From positions 1,005,568 through 1,069,567 of the forward strand of contig NZ_CP033455.1 in NCBI RefSeq assembly GCF_009728835.1: a stretch of 64,000 nucleotides of DNA, read 5' to 3'. Below the pieces are notes generated by a model, which saw nothing but the letters and a program-made list of their open reading frames with translations, ran no database searches and had not been told where the DNA came from. Position numbers and translations under genes: made by a program. Of the stretch, positions 8,428-58,351 are shown in pieces (position 1 is the first letter of the stretch; every line of letters begins with the position of its first letter). Origin of the DNA: Ehrlichia ruminantium. GTDB taxonomy: Bacteria > Pseudomonadota > Alphaproteobacteria > Rickettsiales > Anaplasmataceae.

Positions 8428-9774
8428 GTGTATCAGCAATTTTGGGAGTTGTTAGGAAATCGACAACATAAAGATTATAGTGTTGCATACATTAATGCAC
8501 GAATTATCGATCCAGAATCCAAGCTAGACATCACAGGGTCACTTCTTACTAAAGGAGATAAAATAGTAGACTTTGGAAGTAACTTATTTGCTAACGGTAT
8601 ACCCACTGGAATCAATGAAGTAGTAGATTGCAAGAATAATATATTAATGCCAGGACTAATTGATATTCATGTACATTTTCGTGAACCAGGTCAGGAACAC
8701 AAAGAAACTATTGAAACAGGAAGCAAATCAGCTGCTGCAGGTGGTATAACTACTGTAGTTTGTCAACCTAACACTATACCTACTATTAGCAATGTCATCA
8801 TTGCAAAATACATAAAAATGAGAGCGTTAGAAACTGCTTATGTAAACATAGAGTTTTATGCTTCTATAACAAAATCTGATAACTCACTATCCGATATGGC
8901 CTTATTGAAAGATGCAGGAGCAGTTGGCTTTACTGATGATGGTATGCCAGTAATGAATTCCCTTATAATGAGACAAGCATTAAATTACTCAAGTATGTTA
9001 GACACAGTTATTGCCCAACATGCAGAAGACTTAAATCTATCAAGCAATGGATGTATCAATGAAGGAGAAGTGTCATACGAATTAGGAGTAAAAGGAATAC
9101 CTGATATTTCAGAATCCATCATTGTCAATCGTGACATAACTTTAATGAATAACCTAAGAAATGTACATTACCATGTTCTACATATTTCTTCTAAAAACTC
9201 TCTAGACATAATCAAACAAGCAAAGAATCAAGGATTAAGAGTTACTTGTGAAGTAACTCCTCACCATCTTACTTTAACAGAACAAGATGTCATACAACAT
9301 GGTACTTTTGCAAAAATGAATCCTCCTTTACGTACTGAAAGTGACCGTATTAGTATGATCGAAGGATTAAAAAGTGGGATTATAGATTGCATAGCAACAG
9401 ATCATGCCCCACACGACACAGGTTCTAAAGAATTACCTTTGGACACAGCTGCTTTTGGAATAGTTGGACTAGAAACAATGCTTCCAATTTCTTTAGAATT
9501 GTATCACAATGGCACTATACCTTTAATAGATTTACTTGCAACGCTGACATATAAGCCAGCAGATATTATTAAGGTACCAAGAGGACGCATAAGAAAAGGG
9601 TTTACTGCAGACCTTATTATATTAGATCTTGATCATGAATGGACTATTGATATATCAAAATTTGCAAGCAAATCAAAAAATTCTCCTTTTCACAATCGCA
9701 AAGTAAAAGGTAAAGTATTAAGAACAGTAGTTTCTGGAAAAACTACATATAAATTTGAAAGGCAAACTTTATAG
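8428..9774 (+). CDS. pyrC: Dihydroorotase
   Basis: Cyclises carbamoyl-aspartate to dihydroorotate, the third step of pyrimidine synthesis. The 448-residue protein is of the long class I type. The metal-binding DIHVHFREPG motif lies near residue 75, followed by AAAGGITTV. Later metal-ligand regions are QHAED near 195 and VLHIS near 250. The catalytic IATDHAPH motif is near 328. The start is GTG at 8428, because no in-frame ATG precedes the family's N-terminal segment. The gene stands alone. Its last codons and stop codon form the edge of the downstream 160-bp repeat array, whose units repeat the CTTTATAGAT-like sequence around the stop. Confidence 0.96.
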   Translation: MYQQFWELLGNRQHKDYSVAYINARIIDPESKLDITGSLLTKGDKIVDFGSNLFANGIPTGINEVVDCKNNILMPGLIDIHVHFREPGQEHKETIETGSKSAAAGGITTVVCQPNTIPTISNVIIAKYIKMRALETAYVNIEFYASITKSDNSLSDMALLKDAGAVGFTDDGMPVMNSLIMRQALNYSSMLDTVIAQHAEDLNLSSNGCINEGEVSYELGVKGIPDISESIIVNRDITLMNNLRNVHYHVLHISSKNSLDIIKQAKNQGLRVTCEVTPHHLTLTEQDVIQHGTFAKMNPPLRTESDRISMIEGLKSGIIDCIATDHAPHDTGSKELPLDTAAFGIVGLETMLPISLELYHNGTIPLIDLLATLTYKPADIIKVPRGRIRKGFTADLIILDLDHEWTIDISKFASKSKNSPFHNRKVKGKVLRTVVSGKTTYKFERQTL

Positions 9775-10505
9775 ATTAAAATGTTACTAAACACACATAT
9801 AGCAAAATTACATGAGATAAAACATCAATCACATTATTAGTACTTCCCTTTATATAAAGCTAATCAACATTCAAAACCATACATTAAAACATTACTTATA
9901 AAACAAAACTGTATCTACTTACATTACCTTATAGATCTAGATGCCACCAAACACATACACAGCAAAGTTACATTAAACAAAATATCAATCAAATTATTAG
10001 TACTTTCCTTTATATAAAGCTAATCAACATTCAAAACCATACATTAAAACATTACTTATAAAACAATAACTGTATCTACTTACATTACCTTATAGATCTA
10101 GATGCCACCAAACACATACACAGCAAAATTACATTAAACAAAATATCAATCAAATTATTAGTACTTCCCTTTATATAAAGCTAATCAACATTCAAAACCA
10201 TACATTAAAACATTACTTATAAAACAAAACTGTATCTACTTACATTACCTTATAGATCTAGATGCCACCAAACACATACACAGCAAAGTTACATTAAACA
10301 AAATATCAATCAAATTATTAGTACTTCCCTTTATATAAAGCTAATCAACATTCAAAACCATACATTAAAACATTACTTATAAAACAAAACTGTATCTACT
10401 TACATTACCTCATAGACCTATGATGCCACCAAACACATACACAGCAAAATTACATGAGATAAAACATCAATCACATTATTAGTACTTCCCTTTATACAAA
10501 ACTAT
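9765..10505. repeat. Tandem repeat array, about 160 bp x 4.6
   Basis: Anchor sequence GCTAATCAAC recurs at 9859, 10019, 10180 and 10340, and in degraded form near 10500, so the spacing is 160, 161, 160 and 160 bp. Inner copies are nearly identical; the outer ones have diverged. The first copy starts at the end of pyrC: the sequence spanning its stop codon aligns with the CCTTATAGATCTAGATG part of each unit. The array lies between the convergent genes pyrC and lipB and has no open frame. Confidence 0.9.
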
Positions 10506-10731: not shown

Positions 10732-10815
10732 GTTGTATTAATTTATTATGCCCTTGTAGTAATTTTTTTTTCTTTCTTTCATATTGTTGTAGTACTATTT
10801 TATCAGGGAATTATG
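10732..10815 (+). repeat. 84-bp inverted repeat, left arm
   Basis: This arm is the reverse complement of 11175-11258 with two mismatches. It includes a nine-T run and the CTTTCTTTC block. Together the arms enclose 359 bp whose plus strand is richer in G than C, the opposite of the surrounding non-coding DNA. Confidence 0.9.
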
Positions 10816-11174
10816 TAAAAGATTTTTAGTAGATATGTATTGGGAATAGTTGTGTTTAATAATCAAATCTGCTAAATTGTGTAAATATAACTTACTGATA
10901 ACATTAAAAAGAAGTAGAAATATCAATTATGTTAATTAACGTCAATATGGCTTACTCTAGAAGCACATGAATTATAAAACATGAATTTCTGGCAAGCTTT
11001 ATAATTTCCTAAATGATATAGGGAGTGTATATAATTAAGGGAATGTTTTTTTAATTATGTAACAGTTGTTTCTCTATAGTCTTCTATATAATGTTTGAGT
11101 ACTATCTCTTTACTGTAGTTGTTATTGTGTAAGTAAGTAATTTTATATTACTTATAAATATTTATGTATTAATC
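10816..11174. other. Segment enclosed by the 84-bp inverted repeats
   Basis: No open frame or RNA gene was recognised. On the plus strand G clearly exceeds C, whereas flanking intergenic DNA shows C over G. This fits a segment lying in flipped orientation. It does not look like an insertion sequence, since it has no transposase. Confidence 0.55.
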
Positions 11175-11258
11175 CATAACTCCCTGATAAAATAGTACTA
11201 CAACAATATGAAAGAAAGAAAAAAAAATTACTACAAGGGCATAATAAACTAATACAAC
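11175..11258 (-). repeat. 84-bp inverted repeat, right arm
   Basis: Reverse complement of the left arm at 10732-10815, with 82 of 84 positions matching by eye. It is followed by about 280 bp of featureless AT-rich DNA up to the lipB stop codon. Confidence 0.9.
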
Positions 11259-13192: not shown

Positions 13193-14695
13193 CTAATGAG
13201 TTTCATAATATTTAGACACAAATCTATTTAGTAGCCTTATTCCAAAACCAGTTGCACCTTTTGGACATATCTCAGTGCCTTCAGAATCCCACGCCATACC
13301 TGCAATATCCAAATGCACCCAAGGAACACCATTTACAAACCTTTGTAAAAATTGTGCTGCAGTAATACTATCTGCACCATATCCTTTTGTTGAAATATTT
13401 TGCATATCAGCAATTGACGAGTCTATAAGCTTATCGTAAGCTTCATCTAAAGGTAAGCGCCATAACTTTTCACCAGATTCATTGCCAGCTACAATCAACT
13501 GATTTGCAATATTATCATCATTTGAAAAAAGTCCAGCATATTGATTATTTCCCAAAGCAACAACTACTGCACCAGTCAATGTTGCTAAATCTATCATCAG
13601 CTTAGGAGAAAACATTTCCTGAGTATACCATAAAGCATCAGCCAGAACCAACCTTCCCTCTGCATCAGTATTTAAAACCTCAATTGTTTGCCCAGACATC
13701 GAAATTACAACATCACTTGGTCTTTGTGCATTTCCATCTACTGAATTCTCAACTAGCCCTACTACCCCAACAGCATTAACCTTTGCTTTCCTTGCAGCAA
13801 GAGTGCGCATAATTCCAACAACAGAAGCAGATCCTGCCATATCATACTTCATATCCCACATACCTTTAGAAGGCTTTAATGATACACCACCAGTATCAAA
13901 AGTCACACCCTTTCCAACAAATGCTATAGGACTGTCTGAGTTTCCAGTGCCATTCCACTTCATTACTACAAGCCTAGACCTTTTAGCGCTACCCTGACCT
14001 ACTCCAAGAAGTGCCATCATCTGATTTGCCTTCATGTAATCTTCATCAAATACTTCAACTTCAACACCAACTTTACTTAACTCTTCATATATCATTTGAG
14101 CATATGTCTCTGGATATAAAATATTAGGAGGTTCTGAAACAAAAGAACGAGCCAAGAATACTGATTCACCCTCAGCTTTTAAAGCATCAAATAAAGCTGT
14201 AGATTCTTGCGGGTTACTCTTTAAAAAGAAAACCAATTTATTCAAATAACTTGAGTTTTTATCTTTTTTCTCCACAAAATACTTATCAAATTTAAAACTA
14301 CGCAAAAGTGCTCCGTAAGCAATATTAGCACTTAGGTTACTATCATTACTACTAATAATCGATGCCTCTGATACTTTCATCTTATTAAGTTCAGAATATA
14401 TTACACCACCAATTTTTAAGGATTTATTGTCATTAAAATCTTCAGCTTTACCTAACCCCACTACTATTACAACAGGAAAATTTTTTTCTAAACCAATAAT
14501 TGGTAATACCTCTGCAAACTTACCATCAAAAGATTGATATCCATTTATTATTTCCATAATCTTATCATGATAACCTTCCAACGCGCCATTATCCTCTAAG
14601 TGATGACTCCCTTCAAAAATACCCACAACTATTACCGTTGTCTTCAATAACGCAGATATTCCAGACATTAAACTTAAAAATGATATATTTATCAT
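13193..14695 (-). CDS. pepA: Cytosol aminopeptidase (leucyl aminopeptidase, M17)
   Basis: Removes N-terminal residues from peptides; a hexameric two-metal enzyme of the cytoplasm. The 500 residues comprise an N-terminal macro-like domain (about 1-160) and the catalytic domain. Metal and catalytic residues are visible in KGVTFDTGG, KYDMAGSA and the M17 signature NTDAEGRL. The N-terminus MINISFL matches the neighbouring truncated copy, which supports this start. In some bacteria PepA also helps XerCD resolution of chromosome dimers, and xerC is encoded at 55.9 kb, but no such role is shown here. Confidence 0.96.
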   Translation of the reverse strand: MINISFLSLMSGISALLKTTVIVVGIFEGSHHLEDNGALEGYHDKIMEIINGYQSFDGKFAEVLPIIGLEKNFPVVIVVGLGKAEDFNDNKSLKIGGVIYSELNKMKVSEASIISSNDSNLSANIAYGALLRSFKFDKYFVEKKDKNSSYLNKLVFFLKSNPQESTALFDALKAEGESVFLARSFVSEPPNILYPETYAQMIYEELSKVGVEVEVFDEDYMKANQMMALLGVGQGSAKRSRLVVMKWNGTGNSDSPIAFVGKGVTFDTGGVSLKPSKGMWDMKYDMAGSASVVGIMRTLAARKAKVNAVGVVGLVENSVDGNAQRPSDVVISMSGQTIEVLNTDAEGRLVLADALWYTQEMFSPKLMIDLATLTGAVVVALGNNQYAGLFSNDDNIANQLIVAGNESGEKLWRLPLDEAYDKLIDSSIADMQNISTKGYGADSITAAQFLQRFVNGVPWVHLDIAGMAWDSEGTEICPKGATGFGIRLLNRFVSKYYETH

Positions 14696-14783: not shown

Positions 14784-15359
14784 TTATCCCGCATTTTTTA
14801 GAGTATTAAAAAAATCAGTAGCCTTTGAAACTTGACGTGGTCCTAAAAAGCAAACCAACTTCTTCACATGTACATAGCCATCATCTTCTTTTTCTATACC
14901 GTCTTTATTCATTTCCATACTACGTAAAAATGCACCGTAAGCAATATGTGCAGCTATATTACTATCATTAATAGTAATAACTGATGCATCTTCATTGAAA
15001 TCTTGGTCAGGAACAATACTTTTATCTAATGCCTTAGCTTTACTAATTTCAGAATATATTATACTACCAAGCTTTAAAGCCTTTTCGTTATCAAAATCTT
15101 GAGATAAACCAAGCCCTACTACTATCACTGTAGGAAAAACTGGATCACCTAATTGTATAGGAATTGTGATGACTCTCCCAAATTTACCATTCTCAAAAGA
15201 CTTACAATTTCTAATCTTTTCAAGAAGTGTGTTATCATCACTAAAATACCCATAATCTTCTAAGTGATTACTTCCTTCAAAAATACCTAATACTATTACT
15301 TGTGTATTTACCAATTGAGCAAAACCACTGTATACATCTAGAAATGTTATATCTATCAT
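14784..15359 (-). pseudogene. Truncated tandem copy of pepA (N-terminal domain only)
   Basis: 191 residues that align along their length with the first ~175 residues of the pepA gene just downstream. Shared strings include VIVLGIFEGS versus VIVVGIFEGS, HLED, VIVVGLG, KLGSIIYSE versus KIGGVIYSE, and AHIAYGAFLRS versus ANIAYGALLRS. It stops just after the position of LKAEG in pepA, so the entire metal-binding catalytic domain is missing. I chose the ATG at 15359 rather than 15374 because a GAGGGG lies about 7 bases before it and MIDITFL matches MINISFL. The frame is intact and a ribosome site is present, so a small expressed protein is possible. It cannot be an aminopeptidase. Confidence 0.85.
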
Positions 15360-15379
15360 TTTAATACCCCTCAAACATA

Positions 15380-16571: not shown

Positions 16572-17255
16572 ATGAATTACTTAGCAAAGTTATTATTATG
16601 CGTATTTATAAGTACTATGTACACAGATATTGCAGTAGCAAACGATCCTGTATTAGTCAATTGTAATAAAAAAACCCCAGAAATCTATGACCTTAGTAAT
16701 AAACCAAGTAAATTTTCATTATCAAATAACCTAAGACGTAAAATAAGCAGTCCGATATCAGCTGAAGGAGAGCTTATATATATTGTTGGCAAAGTTACTG
16801 ATACAAATTGTATGCCTATTAGAGGAGCTAATGTTTTTATATGGCATACCAATGCATATGGAATATATCAACATAATCCCTATGATAATGGTAATATGTT
16901 AGAATTAATTCCAGAAGAATTGGATATGTATGATTACCAGTTTATTGGTTCTGGAAAATCAGTTACTGATAATTTAGGAAATTATGGTTTCATCACCATT
17001 ATGCCTGGAACTAACAATAAAAATAAAGTTCCACATGTACACTTTATGTTACAGCATTCAGAATTTCCTGAATTTAATACAACAATGTTTTTCCCAGAAT
17101 ATGATAACAATCAATATACAAAATTTAAAGAAATCAATGATACAAAATTACAAGATCTATTAACAGCTCAATATACTACAAATCATCTTGGGATAAAAAC
17201 ATATCACTTTAATATCACAATTGAAGGCAAGAGTCCTTATAAATCTTTCAAGTAA
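16572..17255 (+). CDS. Exported intradiol-dioxygenase-like protein
   Basis: 227 residues with a Sec-type signal peptide of about 23 residues ending in AVA. The rest is the beta-barrel fold of intradiol ring-cleavage dioxygenases (catechol and protocatechuate 3,4-dioxygenases). Family landmarks are GKVTDTNCMPIRGANVFIWH near residues 72-91, GIYQHN with the equatorial tyrosine, GNYGFITIMPG, and PHVHF with two iron-binding histidines. The known enzymes bind non-haem Fe(III) with two Tyr and two His. Here the segment between IMPG and PHVHF reads TNNKNKV, so the axial tyrosine normally in PGPYPW is absent. Ring cleavage is therefore uncertain. Export is also unusual for the classic enzymes. The last 11 bp lie inside a 107-bp inverted repeat. 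Confidence 0.8.
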   Translation: MNYLAKLLLCVFISTMYTDIAVANDPVLVNCNKKTPEIYDLSNKPSKFSLSNNLRRKISSPISAEGELIYIVGKVTDTNCMPIRGANVFIWHTNAYGIYQHNPYDNGNMLELIPEELDMYDYQFIGSGKSVTDNLGNYGFITIMPGTNNKNKVPHVHFMLQHSEFPEFNTTMFFPEYDNNQYTKFKEINDTKLQDLLTAQYTTNHLGIKTYHFNITIEGKSPYKSFK

Positions 17256-17351
17256 TCTTATCCTAAAATGCATATTTAAAATAGATAGCCTTATGTTATA
17301 TTTGTACATAGCACTATAACTTATTGCTGTGATAAGGCCTATTATTATAGA
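17245..17351 (+). repeat. Perfect 107-bp inverted repeat, left arm
   Basis: Exact reverse complement of 17625-17731 over all 107 bases by eye. The arm begins 11 bases inside the upstream coding region and includes its stop codon, so swapping the arms would not alter the protein. Confidence 0.95.
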
Positions 17352-17624
17352 CACGTTTTATAGTTAATATTATTCTAGGCTGAGTAGCTTTTCTTTATTT
17401 GTATTAGAGTAAGTATGGTACTTATTATCGTAGTTGGTTTTGATTGAAAGAGTGTTCTTAATTATAAGATATGAAAACAATGTTATTCTATCTCGAAGAA
17501 GAGTTAGAGTATAGTTGTATAGATTAGTTATTGTAGTTGATGTTACTGTAGTATATGTAAAGCTTTTTGTGTGTATTGGAATAGGTGTTAGCTTATGATC
17601 TTGGTCAATTTTAATTAAAAAGTA
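17352..17624 (-). other. Flipped 273-bp segment between the inverted repeats
   Basis: The plus strand is rich in G and T, unlike all surrounding non-coding DNA. Read as its reverse complement it resembles the 167-173-bp array that follows: the string ATAGAATAACATTGTTTTCA, then CATATC, AATTAAG, ACAAATAA and AATATTAACTATAA, matches array units in order. It is therefore an inverted copy of the neighbouring repeat. No gene was seen. Confidence 0.75.
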
Positions 17625-17731
17625 TCTATAATAATAGGCCTTATCACAGCAATAAGTTATAGTGCTATGTACAAATATAACATAAGGCTATCTATTTTAA
17701 ATATGCATTTTAGGATAAGATTACTTGAAAG
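17625..17731 (-). repeat. Perfect 107-bp inverted repeat, right arm
   Basis: Exact reverse complement of 17245-17351. Its outer end carries an inverted copy of the final 11 coding bases of the dioxygenase-like gene, showing that the arm was copied from the gene end. Confidence 0.95.
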
Positions 17732-17734
17732 TAA

Positions 17735-19100
17735 GACTAATCTATAAAATTCATTTTTTTCTTTTTGACATAGGATAATACTATTTTCATACCCTGTAAT
17801 TAAGAATATTTTTCTAACTAAAATTGATCAAAATTATAAGTCACATTGATCCCAAGATAAATAAAAGAAGATTCCGTTACATTAAGAACATAAATAATAA
17901 CACTGATCTCTAGAACTTAATTTCACCCTTTTTGACATAGGATAATACTATTTTCATACCCTGTAATTAAGAATATTTTTCTAACTAAAATTGATCAAAA
18001 TTATAAGTCACATTGATCGCAAGATAAATAAAAGAAGATTCCGTTACATTAAGAACATAAATAATAACACTGATTTTTAGAACTTAATTTCACCCTTTTT
18101 GACATAGGATAATACTATCTTCATACCCCTATAATTAAGAATATTTTTCTAACTAAAATCGATTAAAACTATAAGTTAGATTGATCCCAAGATAAATAAA
18201 ATAAGACTCAATTATTAGTAGCATCAACATAATAATACTGATCTATAAAACTTACTTTCACCTCTTTCTAACATAGAATAATACTGTTTCCATATCTCAA
18301 AATTAAGCCGCTCAAGATTATAAAGCTATACCTATTTTAACACAAATAATAAGATCCACCTATTCTAAAAACAATATTGATCATAACATTAATATCTAAA
18401 ACCTATCCTAATCCCTTTCTTGAATAGAATAACACTACTCCTGTACTTAATAACCAGGAATATTTTTGTTCAAATAAACCCGACTAAGACCATAAACCAT
18501 ACTTATTTGAACACAAATAAATTAAAGTCTACCTATTCTAAAAACAATATTGATTATAACATTGATATCTAAAGCCTATCCTAATCCCTTTCTTGAATAG
18601 AACAACACTACTCCTGTATTTCAAACCAAGAATATTTTTGTTCAAATAAACCCGACTAAGACCATAAACCATACTTATTTTTAACACAAATAAATTAAGA
18701 TCCACCTATTCTAAAAACAATATTGATCATAACATTGATATCTAAAGCCTATCCTAATTCCTTTCTTGAATAAAATAACACTACTCCTGTACTTAATACC
18801 AGGAATATTTTTGTTCAAATAAACCCGACTAAGACCATAAACCATACTTATTTGAACACAAATAAATAAGGCCCACTTATTCCAAAATAATATTGACTAA
18901 TAACACTAGCTTCTAAAATTTAACTTTACTTTTTTTTGAGAGAGAATATGAATATTTTCATACTCTATCATTAACAATATACTTTCTAAATAAAATTACC
19001 CAAAACTATTAGCCATACTTATCCTAAGACAAATAACAAAGATTCACCATAAGGCAATACCAGCACAATATTGACGATGAAACCTATTTTAAACTGCTTA
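17735..19100. repeat. Tandem repeat array, 167-173 bp x about 8
   Basis: The anchor CTTTTTGAC / CTTTCTTGAA recurs at 17761, 17928, 18095, 18264, 18415, 18588, 18761 and 18929. The first three copies form one near-identical group with a 167-bp period. Those at 18415-18761 form another with a 173-bp period. The copies between and after are divergent. The last unit runs up to the clpB stop codon. It lies between convergent genes and has no open frame. Confidence 0.9.
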
Positions 19101-19105
19101 TATGA

Positions 19106-21685
19106 TTAACTAACCTTATTAATAACAAGATCATCATCTAATAAATCTACAATCAATTTATCACCTTCAGTTACCTGATTAGCAAGAATCAATTTTGCCA
19201 AATTATTTTGTATTTGCTGTTGTATTAATCTTTTTAAAGGCCTTGCTCCATATAAAGGATCATATCCATTATTCATTAACCATACCTTTGCATTTGAAGA
19301 TAAAGTAATTTCTAATTTCCTTTGAGCAACAATTTTCTGCAATATAGAAAACTGGACATCAATAATCTTCTCAATATGTTCCTTAGTTAACCTATGGAAT
19401 ATAATAATCTCATCTAATCTATTTAAAAATTCTGGCCTAAAATGATGACGTAATACATCGTTAATAGACTGTTTCATTGACTCTTCACTCATATTCTCAG
19501 ACTTATTATCTATTAATATTTCTTGCCCTAAGTTTGATGTCAAAACCAGTATTGTATTACGAAAATCTACTAACTTTCCATGACTATCAGTCAATCTTCC
19601 CTCATCCAATACCTGTAATAAAATATTAAAAATATCCCCATGAGCTTTTTCAATTTCATCAAATAATATTACCTGATAAGGCCTTCTCCTAACAGCTTCA
19701 GTCAACGCACCTCCTTGATCATATCCTACATATCCTGGAGGAGCTCCGATTAACCGTGAAACAGCATGCTTTTCCATAAATTCTGACATGTCAAATCTTA
19801 ACAGCGCAGACTTATCACAAAATAAAAATTCAGCTAATGTCTTAACTAATTCAGTCTTACCTACTCCAGTTGGCCCAAGGAATAAAAAAGACCCTAATGG
19901 TTTTTGTGCATCTTGTACTCCTGCACGTGACCTTCGGACAGCATTACTTACTGCTCTAACAGCACTATCTTGCCCAATAACTGTTTTTCCTATTTCTTCC
20001 TCCATACGTAGCAACTTTTCTCGTTCGCTACTCATTATGTTTTCAATAGGTATACCTGTCCATTTCGATACAATACTTGCTATATCATGTTCTGTAATCT
20101 CCTTTTTAAAGAGACTACTTGTAAACTTCTCATGCTCCTTCAACTCCTTTTCAATTTCCGGAATGACGCCATACATCAACTCCCCAGCTTTTGCTAAATC
20201 ACCAGACCTTTGTGCTCTTTCTAGATCACTCCTAGCAGTATCAAGTCTTTCCTTACATGCTTTCATCTTTGACATCTTCATTTTTTCTGCTTGCCACTTA
20301 CTATTTAGCTCTGCTGACTGAACATCAAGTTTTCCTAGCTCTTCCTTCAATTGCAGTAACCGCTGTTTTGAAGATTCATCACTTTCTTTTTCTAATACTC
20401 CTATTTCAATTTTGAGTTGCATGATTTTTCTATCTAATTTATCAATGATCTCAGGTTTACTATCAATCTCCATTCTTGCACGACTTGCTGCTTCATCAAT
20501 AAGGTCTATTGCTTTATCTGGTAAATACCTATCTGTAATATAACGTTGCGATAAAGTTACAGCAGCAATTATTGACCTATCAGGAATATGGATACCATGA
20601 TGCCCTTCATATCTTTCTTTTAATCCACGCAACATAGAAATTGTATCATCACAACCTGGTTCTGCAATAAATATAGGTTGAAACCTCCTAGCAAGTGCTA
20701 CATCCTTTTCTATATGATTCCTATACTCATCCAATGTTGTTGCACCTATACAATGTATTTCACCCCTAGCCAAAGCTGGCTTCAATAAATTCGATGCATC
20801 CATTGCCCCATCTGTTGCTCCAGCACCAACTAATGTGTGTAGCTCATCAATAAACAGTATAATACTACCATTAGAAGAAATAATTTCATTAACTACAGCT
20901 TTTAATCTTTCCTCAAATTCCCCTCTATACTTAGTTCCTGCAACAAGCATTCCAAGATCCAATGACATTATTTTCATATCTCGTAATCCAATTGGAACAT
21001 CTCCCTTTACTATCTTATGTGCCAATCCTTCAATAATTGCTGTCTTACCGACACCAGGCTCCCCAATTAATACAGGGTTATTTTTTGTTCTTCGCAACAA
21101 TACTTGTATCGTACGTCTAATTTCTTCATCTCTCCCAATAACCGGGTCTAATTTCCCTGCTCTAGCAACTTCAGTAACATCTTTAGCATATTTTTTAAGT
21201 GCATTGAATTTTTGCTCAGAATTTACAGTATCAGCTTTCGCACCATTACGCATATTCACTATCAATGATTCTAACTTTTGAGGAGTCACTCCATGCGCAA
21301 TTAATATCTTAGAAACAGTAATATCTCTTACTATTGTCAGAGCTTGCAATAATCTCTCTACAGTAACATAGGAATCTTGATGTCTTTTTGCAAGACTAAC
21401 AGCCTCTTGTAAAACTTGAGCCATTTCTTTTGATAAATGTATATGACCACTACCAGGACCACTCACAACAGGTAATTTATTTAAGGCTGACACAATATCA
21501 CTATGTAACTTGTCTATACTACATCCACAAGAAGTAAGTAACACTTCAACAATTTCATCTTTATCATCTAACATTACCTTAAGTAGATGCTCAGGTAACA
21601 AAGACTGATGTCCTAATGCAACAGCTGAAGTTTGTGCCTGTACTATGAAATTTTTTGATATATCAGTAAATTTATTTAAATCCAT
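19106..21685 (-). CDS. clpB: ATP-dependent chaperone ClpB
   Basis: Hexameric AAA+ disaggregase that rescues heat-aggregated proteins together with DnaK. The 859 residues show the full architecture: an N-terminal double Clp repeat (about 1-145), the first nucleotide-binding domain with GEPGVGKT near residue 205, a coiled-coil middle domain (about 400-530) rich in Glu and Lys, and a second domain with GPTGVGKT near 605 and ILFDEIEKAH. The middle domain separates it from ClpA and ClpC. An arginine-finger GARPLKRLIQ sits near residue 810. Transcription is single and divergent from the SDR gene. Confidence 0.98.
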   Translation of the reverse strand: MDLNKFTDISKNFIVQAQTSAVALGHQSLLPEHLLKVMLDDKDEIVEVLLTSCGCSIDKLHSDIVSALNKLPVVSGPGSGHIHLSKEMAQVLQEAVSLAKRHQDSYVTVERLLQALTIVRDITVSKILIAHGVTPQKLESLIVNMRNGAKADTVNSEQKFNALKKYAKDVTEVARAGKLDPVIGRDEEIRRTIQVLLRRTKNNPVLIGEPGVGKTAIIEGLAHKIVKGDVPIGLRDMKIMSLDLGMLVAGTKYRGEFEERLKAVVNEIISSNGSIILFIDELHTLVGAGATDGAMDASNLLKPALARGEIHCIGATTLDEYRNHIEKDVALARRFQPIFIAEPGCDDTISMLRGLKERYEGHHGIHIPDRSIIAAVTLSQRYITDRYLPDKAIDLIDEAASRARMEIDSKPEIIDKLDRKIMQLKIEIGVLEKESDESSKQRLLQLKEELGKLDVQSAELNSKWQAEKMKMSKMKACKERLDTARSDLERAQRSGDLAKAGELMYGVIPEIEKELKEHEKFTSSLFKKEITEHDIASIVSKWTGIPIENIMSSEREKLLRMEEEIGKTVIGQDSAVRAVSNAVRRSRAGVQDAQKPLGSFLFLGPTGVGKTELVKTLAEFLFCDKSALLRFDMSEFMEKHAVSRLIGAPPGYVGYDQGGALTEAVRRRPYQVILFDEIEKAHGDIFNILLQVLDEGRLTDSHGKLVDFRNTILVLTSNLGQEILIDNKSENMSEESMKQSINDVLRHHFRPEFLNRLDEIIIFHRLTKEHIEKIIDVQFSILQKIVAQRKLEITLSSNAKVWLMNNGYDPLYGARPLKRLIQQQIQNNLAKLILANQVTEGDKLIVDLLDDDLVINKVS

Positions 21686-58225: not shown

Positions 58226-58351
58226 TTACTACTTATTACTTACTACTTACTACTTACTACTTATTACTTACTACTTACTACTTACTACTTACTACTTACT
58301 ACTTACTACTTACTACTTACTACTTACTACTTACTACTTACTACTTACTAC
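58226..58351. repeat. Heptanucleotide microsatellite, (TTACTAC) x 18
   Basis: 126 bp made of eighteen 7-bp units. Two units near the start read TTATTAC, the rest TTACTAC. No other short-unit repeat of this length occurs in the window. It lies about 200 bp past gpsA and 520 bp past the 3' end of ntrX, so it is outside genes. Such tracts change copy number by slippage. Confidence 0.95.

Follow-up and report, generated by a model that had tools for sequence, protein, structure and literature searches.

The spacer between an intradiol dioxygenase-family gene and the convergent clpB gene on this Ehrlichia chromosome contains a long inverted repeat at the very edge of a tandem array, which raises the question of how such a structure came about and whether the segment that it encloses still changes its orientation. 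A first-pass annotation of the window, that is, of the whole stretch of 64,000 nucleotides that was analysed, had described perfect arms of 107 bp, and 17245-17351 and 17625-17731 are indeed exact reverse complements. The match runs on inward at seven of nine further positions to give arms of 116 bp at 98% identity (114/116), so that "perfect 107" denotes the exact core only. Three 64-kb controls obtained by shuffling gave inverted matches of at most 17 bp. The dioxygenase gene, counted with its stop codon, reaches into the left arm with its last 11 bases (17245-17255, eight coding bases followed by TAA), and the right arm carries an inverted copy of these bases at its outer end, as the annotation had reported. 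Since the right arm holds the end of the dioxygenase gene, it is the copy and the left arm is the original (Table 1).

Table 1. Features of the two inverted repeats and their surroundings, in window coordinates
Feature	Position	Strand	Remarks
Intradiol dioxygenase-family gene (PF00775), intact	16572..17255	+	contributes the 11 gene bases found in both arms
Left arm A (native copy): last 11 dioxygenase bases and 3′ flank	17245..17360	+	exact core 17245-17351
Loop X: degenerate repeat units (about 1.5), reversed relative to the array	17361..17615	-	17352-17624 counting exact arms only
Right arm: inverted copy of A	17616..17731	-	exact core 17625-17731
Tandem arrays: 167-bp units, then 173-bp units	17732..19105	+	begin right at the right arm, degenerate toward clpB
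clpB, convergent neighbour	19106..21685	-	
Second repeat, left arm	10732..10815	-	exact core 10742-10809; likely the copy, by strand composition
Second repeat, loop	10816..11174	-	reversed skew +0.26
Second repeat, right arm	11175..11258	+	exact core 11181-11248

When it is reverse-complemented, the loop between the exact arms (17352-17624) aligns with the downstream array at a strict score of 85, compared to 27.1 ± 3.6 and a maximum of 43 for dinucleotide shuffles, which served as the null; the loop as written scores only 19. BLAST of the loop against the array likewise returned inverted matches, at 67-78% identity over 75-254 bp. The homology of a flipped loop to the array, on which the earlier proposal had been built, is thus borne out by this alignment, and the reversed strand composition reported at the same time is equally clear. 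The intergenic plus strand shows a strong excess of C over G here: while 273-bp windows from intergenic DNA average a GC skew of -0.34 across the whole window, the 273-bp loop has a skew of +0.51. Values above +0.2 were obtained for 9 of 644 intergenic 273-bp windows, counted over the window and two nearby stretches, and all nine lie within the inverted repeats at 17245-17731 or 10742-11248. In a wider sample, some segments of flipped skew are found without a flanking inverted repeat; flipped skew alone is therefore not diagnostic, and its link to inverted repeats is a local one rather than a rule. A stop-free frame of 105 codons extends along the minus strand from 17370 to 17687. A coding gene at this position was considered and rejected, since comparable stop-free runs (at least 84 codons) occur in 7 of 169 273-bp windows taken from other spacers.

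The second inverted repeat, which lies in the pyrC-lipB spacer and had been overlooked in the first reading, is of similar design, with a loop of reversed skew between arms that are exact over 68 bp and 98% identical over 84 bp. This spacer also contains a tandem array (9789-10504). Homology between the loop and the array at 9789-10504 was not detected, so that strand composition is what argues for the flip of the second loop.

The arrangement that preceded the duplication at the dioxygenase gene is suggested by the phase of the repeat units. With arms of 116 bp, the end of the loop at 17361, read in its native orientation, maps to 18063, 18231, 18383, 18556, 18729, and 18899, and the base at which the array starts, 17732, maps to 18065, 18233, 18384, 18557, 18730, and 18901. 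The offset between loop end and array start is thus 1-2 bp in six places, some of the single matches being weak. If arms of 107 bp are taken instead, a 9-bp overlap of unlike sequence results, and phase agreement therefore requires the 116-bp arms. Since the native loop end meets the array start nearly in phase, the likely ancestor had the order gene, arm A, loop X, array.

In E. ruminantium Welgevonden, E. canis, E. muris, and E. mineirensis, too, the dioxygenase gene and clpB lie side by side and converge, and the orthologous spacers of these four genomes are free of such an inverted repeat, as are the spacers between pyrC and lipB in E. ruminantium and E. canis. Given these relatives, the repeat looks young, and the comparison of spacers points to the inverted duplication as the derived state. 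A polarisation of the loop with E. ruminantium as outgroup was attempted and rejected, as spacers are saturated between species. The view that identical arms mark a repeat as recent or as still being homogenised can be retained, with the qualification that arm identity is a sign of either, not of flipping.

Local inverted duplications, including those of gene parts, recur among Ehrlichia genomes. The survey behind this statement consisted of evenly spaced stretches of the genomes, and every count refers to these samples; a raw figure of 145 inverted repeats in the sample of the present genome was inflated by one overlapping palindromic satellite and was not used. In E. ruminantium Welgevonden, a perfect 186-bp inverted partial duplicate of the NADH dehydrogenase 30-kDa subunit gene is present (8430-8615 / 9161-9346, numbered within the sampled stretch). 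Another sampled Ehrlichia genome contains an inverted repeat of 588 bp at 99.7% identity (381-968 / 1490-2077, same kind of numbering), one arm of which lies within the gene for the DNA polymerase III beta subunit. An inverted partial duplicate of ntrX that undergoes gene conversion has been described in E. ruminantium (PMC9937504).

We consider it probable that the structure arose as a local inverted duplication by replicative template switching at the array edge, starting from the order gene, A, X, array. In the ancestor, the gene end and arm A would have been followed by degenerate edge repeats (X) of some 255-273 bp and then by the array. On approaching the end of A, a strand under synthesis would have left its template for the complementary strand, at a point close to the end of X. 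From there it would have copied backwards, first X and then A, as far as the final 11 gene bases, before rejoining its own template near the array start. A single event of this replicative kind would generate A, reversed X, reversed A, and array, and hence the arms and the flipped loop at once. This scenario is supported by the exact arms, the identity of the right arm as the copy, the homology between loop and array, the near-phase junction, and the relatives that lack the repeat. In particular, the direction of copying, the near continuity of phase, and the absence from the spacers of four relatives uphold the original suggestion of an inversion or foldback duplication at an array edge. Additional support comes from the recurrence of inverted duplications in Ehrlichia, from the lack of SbcD matches described below, and from a precedent in yeast, where template switching homogenises arms and inverts spacers (PMC8604942). 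The points that count against it are the diverged spacers, the dependence of the phase on 116-bp arms, a junction microhomology consisting of TTTTA only, which is weak in AT-rich DNA, and the lack of array homology in the second loop.

A history in two steps would lead to the identical sequence, phase continuity included, and the sequence alone cannot separate it from a single event. A fold-back would first have placed an inverted A at the boundary of X and the array without turning X itself, and the loop would have been inverted later by RecA-dependent recombination or by template switching between the arms, with occasional inversion perhaps continuing. RecA is present, inverted repeats with unflipped loops occur in the sampled E. 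ruminantium genome, and inversion of a spacer between perfect arms has its precedent in the yeast system (PMC8604942). However, such a history requires one extra event, and the reversed skew of the loop excludes frequent alternation over long periods, so that we regard it as a doubtful alternative.

The orientation of the loop, as it stands in this assembly, is reversed; it may nevertheless have been set by short-read assembly, if the genome is one of the isolates of PMC7343930. According to this explanation, which seems unlikely to us, the repeat is real, but the assembler joined the loop wrongly between the identical arms, and did so in both inverted repeats. The isolates in question were sequenced with Illumina paired-end reads averaging 160-221 bp after trimming, and the authors state that repeats were incompletely resolved (PMC7343930). 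It also fits this explanation that the skew is reversed in both of the short-loop repeats found in the window, as opposed to the native sign of the loops in the Welgevonden sample, a comparison of very small numbers in which several of the Welgevonden loops contain gene sequence. On the other hand, a 107-bp arm is spanned by reads longer than about 120 bp, the coverage reported in PMC7343930 exceeds 100-fold, and the membership of this genome among those isolates is itself inferred.

Whether the segment flips, as had been proposed, is a separate matter. Alternation would average the skew of the loop toward zero, and at +0.51 frequent flipping over long periods is therefore unlikely; recent or rare flipping is possible and would be compatible with the observed composition. 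The anatomy of identical arms around a short segment is shared with known switches, in which site-specific or recombination-driven inversion alters the expression of a neighbouring gene. Yet a functional switch is extremely improbable here, as the reversed skew is undiluted, promoter-like sites are within shuffled expectation, the flanking genes converge so that the segment faces no gene start, and the repeat is missing in relatives. Moreover, serine recombinases gave no match in seven Ehrlichia genomes, with a control search positive in 10 of 14 well-known genomes, and tyrosine recombinases number only two, as many as XerC and XerD would account for. The idea of a segment that flips as a switch is not supported. 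A role for the repeat as a structured RNA element or as a bidirectional terminator serving the two convergent genes, suggested by the 107-bp stem that a read-through transcript from either gene would include, is highly improbable: no terminator-like site was found, Rfam returned no match, single arms fold no better than shuffles, and relatives with the same convergent genes lack the repeat at that place. Given convergent genes and no promoter excess, terminator, or RNA family, inversion would have no obvious effect, and the inverted repeat is most likely a young scar without function. Its arms could be homogenised, and its loop re-inverted, by an event similar to the template switch that we favour as its origin.

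The persistence of such repeats may be connected with the repair machinery of the genus. SbcD had no match in any of seven Ehrlichia genomes, while the control search succeeded in 13 of 14 well-known genomes. In E. coli, SbcCD and RecA counter rearrangement at an interrupted palindrome (PMC3315005). Lack of SbcCD, of which the search covered SbcD, may help inverted repeats to persist in Ehrlichia. It is very unlikely that Ehrlichia genomes accumulate inverted repeats for want of SbcCD and that their loops invert by template switching to give recombinase-free local variation concentrated in repeat-bearing spacers.

Several further observations concern tandem arrays and duplications. Long-period tandem arrays are over-represented between convergent genes in the sample of this genome: spacers of this type contain 23 of the 39 intergenic arrays but make up 31% of the non-array spacer bases (p = 0.0003; genes taken as ORFs of at least 100 codons). 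The enrichment is less marked in E. ruminantium, as sampled (p = 0.097), and was not seen in a sample of two other Ehrlichia genomes. At 58226-58351, a 7-bp unit, TTACTAC, is repeated in eighteen copies. A truncated second ORF (14784-15374) encodes a product that is 44% identical to the N-terminal portion of the leucine aminopeptidase-like protein encoded next to it (13193-14695).

The evidence as a whole suggests a known kind of mutational scar, produced by an ordinary mechanism, and nothing that was found points to a genetic switch. The locus represents a clear natural bacterial example of an inverted duplication with a flipped loop, the history of which is recorded in the composition of the strands and the phase of the repeat units. 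Should lack of SbcCD be the reason why the genus tolerates such repeats, this could help to explain local rearrangement and gene conversion, as in the case of ntrX. The segments inverted by conservative site-specific recombination resemble the present repeat in that inverted repeats flank a short segment. They differ in that here a dedicated recombinase was not detected, a promoter excess is absent, and there is no gene start to control; the arms are also far longer than recombinase sites. The interrupted palindrome studied in E. coli is likewise chromosomal, long, and prone to hairpin-driven rearrangement, but E. coli possesses SbcCD and the interruption measures 24 bp, whereas in the present case SbcD is undetected and the loop exceeds that length about tenfold (PMC3315005). 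The ntrX case, from a close relative, is an inverted duplicate of unique sequence near its source, and gene conversion keeps its arms alike; it comprises 421 bp at a distance of about 2 kb from the source and lies inside a coding gene, whereas the gene content of the repeat described here is confined to 11 terminal bases and the flipped loop that it encloses is non-coding (PMC9937504). In yeast, the arms concerned measure about 10-16 bp and the spacers are very short, compared to 107-116 bp and about 255-273 bp in this bacterium; nevertheless, the template switch characterized there predicts what is seen at this locus, namely identical arms and an inverted spacer from one event (PMC8604942).
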